Part shown: positions 50,693-53,585 of the stretch, piece after piece | Layout: every line of letters starts with the position of its first letter | How positions within the stretch are numbered: position 1 is the first letter of the stretch | From: an uncultured Granulosicoccaceae bacterium | Lineage (GTDB): Bacteria; Pseudomonadota; Gammaproteobacteria; Granulosicoccales; Granulosicoccaceae | NCBI GenBank assembly: GCA_938005265.1 | Contig: CALLOA010000113.1 | Location: forward strand, 1-64,000 | DNA length: 64,000 bases | Direction of reading: 5' to 3' | Notes under the pieces: generated by a model | Told to the model about the DNA's origin: nothing | The model's database searches: none | What the model saw: only the letters and a program-made list of their open reading frames with translations | Program-made: the position numbers and the translations under genes

Positions 50693-52516
50693 TCACTCCA
50701 GAAAACCACCAGATTGTCGCTTCCACAGGTCTGAGTACAGGCCATTTCCGGCGATAAGTTCGTCATGGGAACCGCTCTCAATAATCTGCCCCTTCTCCAT
50801 GACAATGAGCCGATCCATCTGCGAGATTGTTGACAATCGATGGGCGATGGCCAGCACCGTCTTGCCCTTCATCAGAGCATTCAGATTCTCCTGAATGGCC
50901 GCCTCCACTTCAGAATCAAGGGCTGACGTTGCTTCATCCAGAATCAGAATTGGTGCGTCTTTCAAAAAAACCCGGGCGATTGCAATACGCTGACGCTGCC
51001 CGCCAGACAGGGTTACACCACGCTCCCCCACCATGGCATCAAAGCCGCGATACCCGTTGACATCAACAAGGTCACGAATAAAATCCTCAGCGTTTGCACG
51101 GCGTGCTGCTGTAACTACTTCTTCGTGATTGGCATCGCGTCTGCCATAGGCAATATTGTCAAACACACTACGATGCAACAGAGAAGTATCCTGTGTCACA
51201 ACACTGATGTTGGCTCGCAAACTATCCTGGCTTACTGCTGCAATGTCAGTACCGTCAATGGCAATCCTTCCCTGATTGAGGTCATACAATCGCAGCAGCA
51301 AATTAACCAGTGTTGTTTTACCGGCACCCGAACGGCCAACTATGCCCACCTTTTCACCAGCCGCTATTTGCAGTGTCATGTCTTTGATGACTGGCAATTG
51401 CTGCACGTAATCAAATGACACTTCGTTAAACTCAACGCCACCTGCATTAACTACAAGTTCTGTAGCATCGGGTCGGTCCACCACTTCTCGCTCTCTGGCG
51501 AGCGTGTTGATACCGTCGCGCACGATACCAATGTTCTCAAATAGCGCTGACACTTCCCACATGATCCAATGCGACAAACCATGCAAACGAAGTATCACGG
51601 CCAGTGCAACAGCAACAGCACCTGCACCGACGGCGTTTTCCTTCCACAATAAAAGCCCGACCAACAAGGTCACGGCCATCAACACCATGCCACTGACATC
51701 AACACAGATCTGGAAGCCGGATGACAGACGCATCTGTTTATAAACGGTGGTCAGAAAGCCATCCATACCCGCTTTGGCATAATCCGCTTCACGCCCGGCA
51801 TGGGAAAAAAGTTTTACTGTTGCTATATTGGTGTAACTGTCAATGACACGGCCAGTCATCAAGGCACGAGCATCCGCCTGTTTGGTTGAGACTTCGCTAA
51901 GGCGCGGCACAAAGTAGAACAACACCGCAAGGTAAAAAATCAACCATGCTAAAAACGGCAGCATCAAACGCCAATCAGTACCGGCCATCAATACCAGTAC
52001 ACTGAGAAAATACACAGCAATGTAAACCAGAATATCGAGCAGCTTCATCACGGTTTCACGCACCGCCAATGATGTCTGCATTACCTTGGTACCGATACGG
52101 CCGGCAAATTCATTGTTGAAAAATGTCTGGCTTTGCTTCAACACATAGCGATGTGCCTGCCAGCGAATCACCATCGGCAGGTTACCGAGCAGGGTCTGGT
52201 GAACCAGCACCGTCTGCAGTATGGCCAGCAGTGGGAACACCACCAGCAGTACCAGAGCCATCAAGATCAGCGCAGCGGACTTTTCCGAAAACAGGGTCTC
52301 CGGATCAGTCACAGCCAGCCAATCGACTATGCTGCCCATAAAAGCAAACAACGAGACCTCAACAATGGCTATCAGTGCGGAAAGCACTGACATGGCAAGC
52401 AAGTATTTCCAGGATGATCGACAGAAATGTAAACAGAAGCCGAACAGCGTCGAAGGCGGCTGAACAGGCTCTTCCGGCGGGTAAGGATTTACTAGTTTTT
52501 CGAAGAAACTATACAC
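50693..52516 (-). CDS. ABC exporter (fused permease-ATPase, MsbA-like)
   Basis: 607 residues from a GTG at 52516. The N-terminal half has six membrane helices. The C-terminal ATPase has Walker A GRSGAGKTTLVN, Q-loop, signature LSGGQRQRIAIAR, Walker B ILILDEATSALD and H-loop AIAHRLST. It should work as a homodimer exporting lipids or drugs. No ribosome site is seen before the GTG, and a terminator-like hairpin lies 12 nt upstream, so expression or start choice is unclear. Substrate unknown. Confidence 0.85.
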   Translation of the reverse strand: MYSFFEKLVNPYPPEEPVQPPSTLFGFCLHFCRSSWKYLLAMSVLSALIAIVEVSLFAFMGSIVDWLAVTDPETLFSEKSAALILMALVLLVVFPLLAILQTVLVHQTLLGNLPMVIRWQAHRYVLKQSQTFFNNEFAGRIGTKVMQTSLAVRETVMKLLDILVYIAVYFLSVLVLMAGTDWRLMLPFLAWLIFYLAVLFYFVPRLSEVSTKQADARALMTGRVIDSYTNIATVKLFSHAGREADYAKAGMDGFLTTVYKQMRLSSGFQICVDVSGMVLMAVTLLVGLLLWKENAVGAGAVAVALAVILRLHGLSHWIMWEVSALFENIGIVRDGINTLAREREVVDRPDATELVVNAGGVEFNEVSFDYVQQLPVIKDMTLQIAAGEKVGIVGRSGAGKTTLVNLLLRLYDLNQGRIAIDGTDIAAVSQDSLRANISVVTQDTSLLHRSVFDNIAYGRRDANHEEVVTAARRANAEDFIRDLVDVNGYRGFDAMVGERGVTLSGGQRQRIAIARVFLKDAPILILDEATSALDSEVEAAIQENLNALMKGKTVLAIAHRLSTISQMDRLIVMEKGQIIESGSHDELIAGNGLYSDLWKRQSGGFLE

Positions 52517-52527
52517 AGTGCTTAAAC

Positions 52528-52558
52528 AAAAAACCCCTGCGATTGGCAGGGGTTTTTA
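52528..52558 (-). terminator. Bidirectional-type intrinsic terminator of the tRNA-Ser transcript
   Basis: CCCCTGC (52534-52540) and GCAGGGG (52546-52552) form a 7-bp stem with a 5-nt loop, flanked by an A run on one side and a T run on the other. On the minus strand it follows the tRNA-Ser repeat array and ends just before the ABC exporter GTG. Confidence 0.85.
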
Positions 52559-52568
52559 TTATGTGAAT

Positions 52569-52811
52569 TGGCGGGGAGAGAGGGATTCGAACCCTCCCAT
52601 TGCGAGGGTGTGAACCGTAACTCTGCTGTTCCACGTTTGCTTTTTGTATTGGCGGAGAGAGAGGGATTCGAACCCTCCCATTGAGAGGGTGTGAACCGTT
52701 GCTCTGTTCCCAATTTACTTGCGCATCGTGTATTGGCGGAGAGAGAGGGATTCGAACCCTCCCATACCGAAGGGTGTGAACCGTTACTCTATTCCAAATA
52801 CATTTATAAAT
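52569..52811 (-). repeat. Three tandem 3'-half tRNA-Ser repeats
   Basis: Three units, with CCA ends at 52734, 52650 and 52569 (spacings 78, 84, 81 bp from the tRNA), lie downstream of and in line with tRNA-Ser. Each preserves the T arm, the 3' acceptor strand and CCA exactly or with one mismatch, and part of the variable arm (ACGGTTCACACC). Weak similarity extends back to the anticodon region (GGAA). The 5' half is missing, so none can form a tRNA. All three units share a hairpin absent from the true tRNA: ACCCTC/GAGGGT around a 7-nt loop (wobble in the unit nearest the tRNA). Confidence 0.85.
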
Positions 52812-52903
52812 TGGCGGAGAGAGAGGGATTCGAACCCTCGATACGGTGTGAACCGTATACCAACTTTCCAGGCTGGCTCCTTCGACCACTCGGACACCTC
52901 TCC
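52812..52903 (-). tRNA. tRNA-Ser(GGA)
   Basis: 92 nt on the minus strand, beginning GGAGAGGTGTCCGAGTGG and ending CTCTCCGCCA with an encoded CCA. The anticodon stem-loop is CCAGC-CTGGAAA-GTTGG with anticodon GGA. It has a long variable arm (ATACGGT/ACCGTAT) typical of class II Ser tRNAs and an intact T arm (GAGGG/CCCTC around TTCGAAT). It is followed by three partial copies of its own 3' half. Confidence 0.95.
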
Positions 52904-53258
52904 GGGACACACAACACTCACAGGTTAGTCCCTAATCCCTGCTTGTTACTGTTTGTTGATTTGAGCAACCTACACTACATAGAGCAATGACCTGCCTGCT
53001 TCGTCACAAGCGAGCTGGTAGAAGGTAACTTGTTAGTCAACAATGATTTCAAACATAATTACCCGGGTTATCTTTCCCGGAATTTCTTCCGGTCCGAATT
53101 TTCTTACCCATTTTTTTAGCTACATTTTTTAGCTACAACTTATAGCTGGTCTTATCTAAATCAGCCAGCCTGTTGTTTTTATTGGTTCCCTTTTTTATGG
53201 GTTCCTTTTAAAGCACCTTTTGCCGATCTCTTGCCAGCAATCACTCGATTGATGGCAC
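52904..53258. other. AT-rich intergenic region with short duplication
   Basis: 355 bp with no supported gene. It contains a two-copy ATTTTTT(T)AGCTAC duplication at 53110-53136 and a pair of similar GGTTCC-plus-T-run segments near 53184-53208. The tRNA promoter must lie in its left part. Confidence 0.5.
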
Positions 53259-53585
53259 CTACTCCGCACTATTGGGAGTGTAGATCGGAGAAGGAAACTT
53301 GGCCACTTTGCCGTCAAGGTCTGCAACCTTGGGCGTGCCCTTTTTCTCAACCTCATCAATTCTTATTATTGAATGCATCGGGATGATAGTTTGCTTCACC
53401 CCATCGAACTCGGATTTTAGCTTTTCTTCCGCAGGATCAACAACCATTGATGTATTGGTATCAAATACCAAGTCCCGCAAAACCACAAATCCGTACATAT
53501 CGCCCTGAAAGCACTCACGGGCATAAATTTCAAACATCTTGTCCTGGCTGATGAAACGAACCCGGTACATACGATTGTCAGTCAT
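53259..53585 (-). CDS. DUF1820 family protein
   Basis: 108 residues. The sequence YRVRFISQDKMFEIYARECFQGDMYGFVVLRDLVFD and IPMHSIIRIDEVEKKG matches the small DUF1820 family, conserved in gammaproteobacteria and of unknown function. No signal peptide or helices are evident, so it is cytoplasmic. It is monocistronic. It supports the gammaproteobacterial assignment. Confidence 0.85.
   Translation of the reverse strand: MTDNRMYRVRFISQDKMFEIYARECFQGDMYGFVVLRDLVFDTNTSMVVDPAEEKLKSEFDGVKQTIIPMHSIIRIDEVEKKGTPKVADLDGKVAKFPSPIYTPNSAE

Follow-up and report, generated by a model that had tools for sequence, protein, structure and literature searches.

A single E. coli operon has for decades been the known source of the RtT repeats, and their function is still vague (Bosl and Kersten 1991, cited in PMC4986893). 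In this operon, tyrT, three tandem units (Rfam family RF00391) stand directly downstream of the tRNA on the same strand, each closing with the exact 19-nt 3' end of tRNA-Tyr, CCA included, and the layout is annotated as yielding the non-coding RNA RttR. Within the E. coli rtT units, CTTCGACCAAGGTTCGA resembles the variable arm and T stem of the tRNA and is followed by an insertion, with the stretch CTTCGA..AAGGTTCGA showing the similarity to the variable arm/T stem. RtT RNAs are described as released from tRNA operons and were detected by Northern blots in Actinobacillus (PMC4986893). A further by-product RNA is 3'ETS-leuZ, a lone trailer of 53 nt that is cut out of a pre-tRNA transcript and acts in trans as a sponge for RyhB/RybB (PMC8166272). 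Copies of tRNA tails are also left by integration: integrases usually target the 3' halves of tRNA genes, and displaced 3' tDNA fragments are what islands leave behind, at sites that are anticodon-centred or in the T stem; Islander calls require an integrase and an intervening island (PMC4383910). Our literature searches returned no description of tRNA-tail arrays such as the one analysed here.

The array behind tRNA-Ser(GGA)

The window, that is, the whole 64,000-nt stretch of DNA analysed, comes from a 4.9-Mb draft genome (G000) and carries the array on contig C113. The sequence-only reading of this DNA had described an intact tRNA-Ser(GGA) gene followed by three 3'-half units of 78–84 nt, and both ARAGORN and the in-register copies bear this out, with all elements on the minus strand. 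The tRNA itself (52812-52903; Rfam RF00005, 53.7 bits) has its CCA encoded at 52812-52814. Unit 1 (52734-52811, 78 nt) consists of a linker at 52784-52811 and a core at 52734-52783, the core being built of a variable-arm copy, an 11-nt junction, a T-arm copy, the acceptor 3' strand and GCCA. Unit 2 (52650-52733, 84 nt) is divided into a linker at 52699-52733 and a core at 52650-52698, and unit 3 (52569-52649, 81 nt) into a linker at 52618-52649 and a core at 52569-52617, with one substitution in the acceptor strand. The tRNA and the three units thus form four in-register copies with start-to-start spacing of 81, 84 and 78 nt, and an exact or near-exact copy of the last 28 bases of the tRNA closes each unit. 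An exact match to its 23-nt tail TTCGAATCCCTCTCTCTCCGCCA lies at 52812, 52734 and 52650, and the copy at 52569 differs by one mismatch, so that an intact GCCA closes every unit, just as had been claimed for the CCA ends. Each unit also retains a short remnant resembling the anticodon loop (UGGAA..AGAG) upstream of the variable arm. A complete cloverleaf is absent from the units, as ARAGORN and Rfam call only the first copy a tRNA. The array is not a chance similarity, because the core is found four times and the locus lies inside a 79-kb contig.

The array has the orientation of the tRNA, and the terminator comes after it and not before. The terminator noted by the sequence-only reading is there, as an inverted repeat on the minus strand (52529-52557) with a 12-bp stem and a U run; the terminator scanner did not list this hairpin, probably because the stem absorbs the U run. 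It is followed by an ABC transporter gene (52516-50693), which also adjoins the array downstream in G002, a second genome of the genus. Upstream of the tRNA there is a small ORF which, from its translation, we take to be DUF1820-like and which is recognisable in this position in other family members too. The ORFs listed within about 5 kb of the array include no apparent integrase, and the gaps between the tRNA and the 3' copies consist only of linkers of 28–35 nt, with no integrase or island remnant.

Recurrence in the genus and relation to RtT

We compared tRNA genes with their own downstream DNA in three genomes of the window's genus, an uncultured genus of the Granulosicoccaceae (G000, G001 and G002), all draft assemblies of different species, and in one genome of a neighbouring genus (G003). 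Units recur at four Ser/Leu tRNA genes of the genus: behind Ser(GGA) in G000 and G002, behind Ser(GCT) in G002 (three units), behind Leu(CAA) in all three genomes (two units in G001) and behind Leu(CAG) in all three, decayed in G001. The sequence-only reading had suggested looking for similar arrays after tRNA-Ser in sister taxa; they are present there, and behind two tRNA-Leu genes as well. Decayed copies are unit 1 of the G001 Leu(CAG) array and the second copy of the G000 Leu(CAG) array, and at Ser(GCT) G000 has only a 13-nt remnant: on contig C73 (L034, 1108-1200) the tRNA is cut by the contig end and is followed by one 13-nt copy of the 3' end, TCTCTCTCCGCCA. In the window's genus no units were seen behind Leu(UAA), Leu(UAG), Leu(GAG), Tyr or the class I tRNAs examined, nor were any seen at the loci found in G003. 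Unit lengths vary between arrays (82, 95, 98, 102 nt and others; 78–111 nt overall).

In a scan of 48 genomes of the family the Ser pattern was restricted to the window's genus, as were the Leu(CAA) units among the family loci inspected. A second genus has a related array behind Leu(CAG) only (G032, G064 and G061), and the remaining Leu(CAG) loci checked have no units. Pattern scans of 352 Gammaproteobacteria, strict enough that diverged arrays would be missed, returned no further array; the hits of one of these scans in seven other genomes were tRNA-Ser/tRNA-Arg pairs or other places where tRNA genes lie densely clustered. With the exact Ser pattern, G002 alone matched among 84,980 genomes. 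Contigs break at several arrays (the end of C276 in G001, the end of C61 and start of C20 in G002, C36/C46 in G064 and C27 in G061), so the copy numbers given here are lower bounds and more arrays may hide at contig ends.

How close are these arrays to RtT? The parallel with E. coli tyrT drawn from the window's sequence holds well for the general plan: tandem units directly downstream of the tRNA on the same strand, three copies in both cases, unit ends, CCA included, taken exactly or nearly so from the tRNA in front, and before them a stretch comparable to the rtT segment that resembles the variable arm and T stem, together with an insertion. However, the copied tail is 22–39 nt in the arrays versus 19 in E. 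coli RtT, the middle is 10–20 nt versus about 75 nt of hairpins, and unlike RtT the arrays have no tpr-like ORF. They also sit behind Ser and Leu tRNAs only, whereas RtT is found behind Tyr, Ser and Gln, which, as far as RtT is concerned, disposes of the idea that the pattern is specific to long-variable-arm tRNAs in general. The RF00391 model has no match at E<=1 in 52000-53400 of the window and none in G000, while 59 of 314 genomes of the class, and E. coli, do match (under stricter filters, with which weak matches may be lost). Among 30 RtT loci that we fetched (L228-L257), the preceding tRNA is Tyr, Ser or Gln wherever the link is clear, and in 21 of the 30 a unit ends in 15–19 nt of its own resident tRNA tail, so that RtT seems to track its resident tRNA. 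Several RtT units also hold an internal segment complementary to the tRNA tail. A terminal stem between the tail and an inverted copy within the unit is strong in E. coli rtT (-20.3 kcal/mol, 0 of 300 shuffles), but it is weak in the G000 Ser units (p 0.28–0.38) and is not significant across all array units; among the RtT units tested, too, more than half lack significance for it. From these comparisons the array is RtT-like in anatomy and probably in biogenesis, but outside the RtT family. It is conceivable, if doubtful, that the arrays and RtT are members of one broader class of tandem units that take their 3' 15–39 nt from the tRNA in front, as a CCA processing signal or as a homing sequence.

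Conserved cores, drifting linkers and predicted folds

Between species the unit cores are 75–92% identical, in contrast to the linkers, which in gapped alignments are 36–62% identical, mostly at chance level with shuffle z-scores mostly near 0. G000 and G002 share only 68% identity in the ABC transporter that neighbours the Ser(GGA) array, so neutral DNA is expected to be saturated at this distance. The identity of the 3' tails could be maintained by gene conversion from the tRNA. Such conversion does not explain the Leu(CAG) junction ACCTGGCCGGCCGCGAAG, since it is absent from the tRNA, and this junction matches between species at 16/18, 16/18 and 14/18 positions. Similarly, the Leu(CAG) units of the second genus have GAGCATATGCTC where their own tRNA has GAGCTTATGCTC, and the G002 Ser(GGA) unit retains TTCACACC where its own tRNA has TTCACGCC. 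Selection on the arrays is thus likelier than passive drift, judging from the drifting linkers, the conserved cores and the conserved non-tRNA junction next to a neighbouring protein that has diverged to 68%. The case is strongest at Leu(CAG) and is indirect for the Ser(GGA) array itself, where the conserved content is mostly tRNA-identical sequence and the hairpin is not common to the G002 unit.

This hairpin, ACCCTC/GAGGGT, had been noted as common to the three Ser(GGA) copies. It is exact in unit 2, where ACCCTC (52685-52690) pairs with GAGGGT (52672-52677), and in unit 3, but unit 1 has ACCCTT/GGAGGGT instead. Its proposed competition with the T arm agrees with folding predictions, in which it wins in each of the three units (P(T-arm) at most 0.003; minimum free energy -22.4 to -23.6 kcal/mol, compared with -17.2 to -19.1 kcal/mol when the T arm is imposed). 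The G000 Ser units are predicted to form a rod-like fold, with pairing of GGUUC to GAAUC and of ACCCU to AGGGU; the Ser(GCT) units keep the T hairpin and do not share this fold. As for relatives, where both the CCA and the hairpin had been proposed as things to look for, the 3' end with its CCA is largely kept but the hairpin is not, being missing from the Ser(GCT) and Leu units and even from the orthologous G002 Ser(GGA) unit. Covariation, suggested as a test of the hairpin in related genomes, is almost absent: RNAalifold gave zero compensatory pairs for the Ser and Leu(CAG) alignments, and the second genus yielded two. The fold z-scores of the units are modest, about -2 or weaker, and no secondary structure conserved across the tRNA families was found. 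Given the unshared rod-like fold and the near-absence of compensatory pairs, secondary structure is not established as a conserved feature. A closing stem between the acceptor strand of the unit and an upstream partner was also considered and was not significant over the g1/g4 units, in a test whose partner region ended 29 nt from the unit end and so left the Leu(CAG) partner at least partly outside; in the Leu(CAG) minimum free energy fold the acceptor strand and its partner pair as GCCGCGAAG/CUUCUCGGC.

Origin and possible role of the arrays

What are these arrays then? The reading that we prefer, with a probability somewhat below one half (about 0.46), is a lineage-specific, RtT-like, tRNA-linked repeat that is co-transcribed with the tRNA, processed into CCA-ended RNAs and kept by selection. 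The architecture, its recurrence at four Ser/Leu tRNA genes of the genus, the contrast in conservation and the predicted fold are there in the sequences, and transcription, processing and function are inferred. In E. coli the same layout yields RttR, and RtT RNAs are described as released from tRNA operons. The Ser(GGA) array would probably be co-transcribed with its tRNA up to the terminator; the tRNA 3'-maturation machinery would then act on the transcript, by an endonuclease cut in the AU-rich linkers and by trimming of the 3' ends to CCA, and make of each unit a small structured RNA that is not a tRNA but carries CCA at its 3' end. Selection would then hold the tRNA-identical 3' tail and the remodelled middle, leaving the linkers to drift. 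The likeliest role would be similar to that of RtT or 3'ETS-type by-product RNAs, as a decoy, a sponge or a modulator of tRNA processing and stress response. Like 3'ETS-leuZ and other transcribed-spacer RNAs, the array RNAs are proposed to come from pre-tRNA and to act in trans; in contrast to that single trailer, though, the Ser(GGA) locus is a tandem array, for which a target or an Hfq role would be hypothetical.

Alternatively, the tRNA 3' region could have been duplicated in tandem in a passive manner, the tails being homogenised by gene conversion or unequal exchange with the tRNA gene, which is itself under selection, and the arrays would have no function. Copies are readily born and lost, as shown by arrays of one to three units, decayed copies and a mini-copy; the tails match the resident tRNA, G002 has even part of the linker in duplicate, and contigs often end at the arrays, as they would at repeats. 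Nevertheless we regard this origin as rather unlikely, since it does not account for the non-tRNA states of the units conserved across species, in the Leu(CAG) junction and in GAGCATATGCTC of the second genus, nor for TTCACACC in the G002 Ser(GGA) unit. Slippage alone, which the sequence-only reading had offered as an alternative, also fails to explain conserved cores beside drifting linkers and leaves the restriction to Ser/Leu tRNAs unaccounted for. The same reading had raised old integration scars. On this view the tRNA 3' half would serve as att site for non-autonomous elements of small size, or for islands that integrated and were lost time and again, and each event would have left a tail copy, in keeping with the integrase targets and the displaced fragments described above (PMC4383910). 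Displaced tDNA found by Islander, like the arrays, consists of 3' tRNA fragments at Ser/Leu genes, some starting near the anticodon region, to which some array units extend back, and an att duplication would likewise give what most RtT units behind Tyr, Ser and Gln show, the last 15–19 nt of the resident tRNA. The array copies, however, are about 80 nt apart with no island between them and no integrase apparent among the ORFs listed nearby, and 78–111 nt is very small for integrative elements; together with the conserved context of the locus (the DUF1820-like ORF upstream in relatives, the ABC transporter downstream in G002) and with decay that is not uniform along the units, where scars predict uniform decay, this makes an attachment-site array improbable in our opinion.

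A repetitive protein has next to no chance of being the explanation. The frame of a 133-aa ORF (52509-52910, minus strand) with four RVRIPLSPPI repeats does stay open from the tRNA through every unit, the lengths of 78, 84 and 81 nt each being divisible by three, but the repeats are translated tRNA tail and the frame is lost in other arrays of the genus; their unit lengths (82, 95, 98, 102 nt and others) break any frame, which rules out coding potential of the array.

Overall, the sequences point to a conserved RtT-like RNA array rather than a random stutter. This would be a second set of tRNA-tailed tandem units, without a match to the RtT model and conserved at several Ser/Leu tRNA genes, and it provides a comparative handle on what such units need: the tRNA tail, the CCA and a remodelled middle. 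It also makes it possible to test whether RNAs that exploit tRNA 3' maturation for themselves are common in tRNA operons. For annotation, the arrays call for caution because assemblies often end at them and because translated tRNA tails give spurious ORFs, here the 133-aa RVRIPLSPPI frame and another on the plus strand (52691-52990, 99 aa, EREGFEPS).

tRNA-Ser-linked repeats of a different type were also seen in other Gammaproteobacteria, in G044 (L032, 1589-2000) and at L006 and L024. These contain a T-arm copy with a hairpin insertion, after which each L032 repeat has the tRNA 3' end and then a terminator. In G007 (L190, 823-1029) two identical full-length tRNA-Arg(ACG) genes stand in tandem, and similar terminator-like hairpins come after both; this pair is a recent whole-gene duplication and serves as a contrast case.
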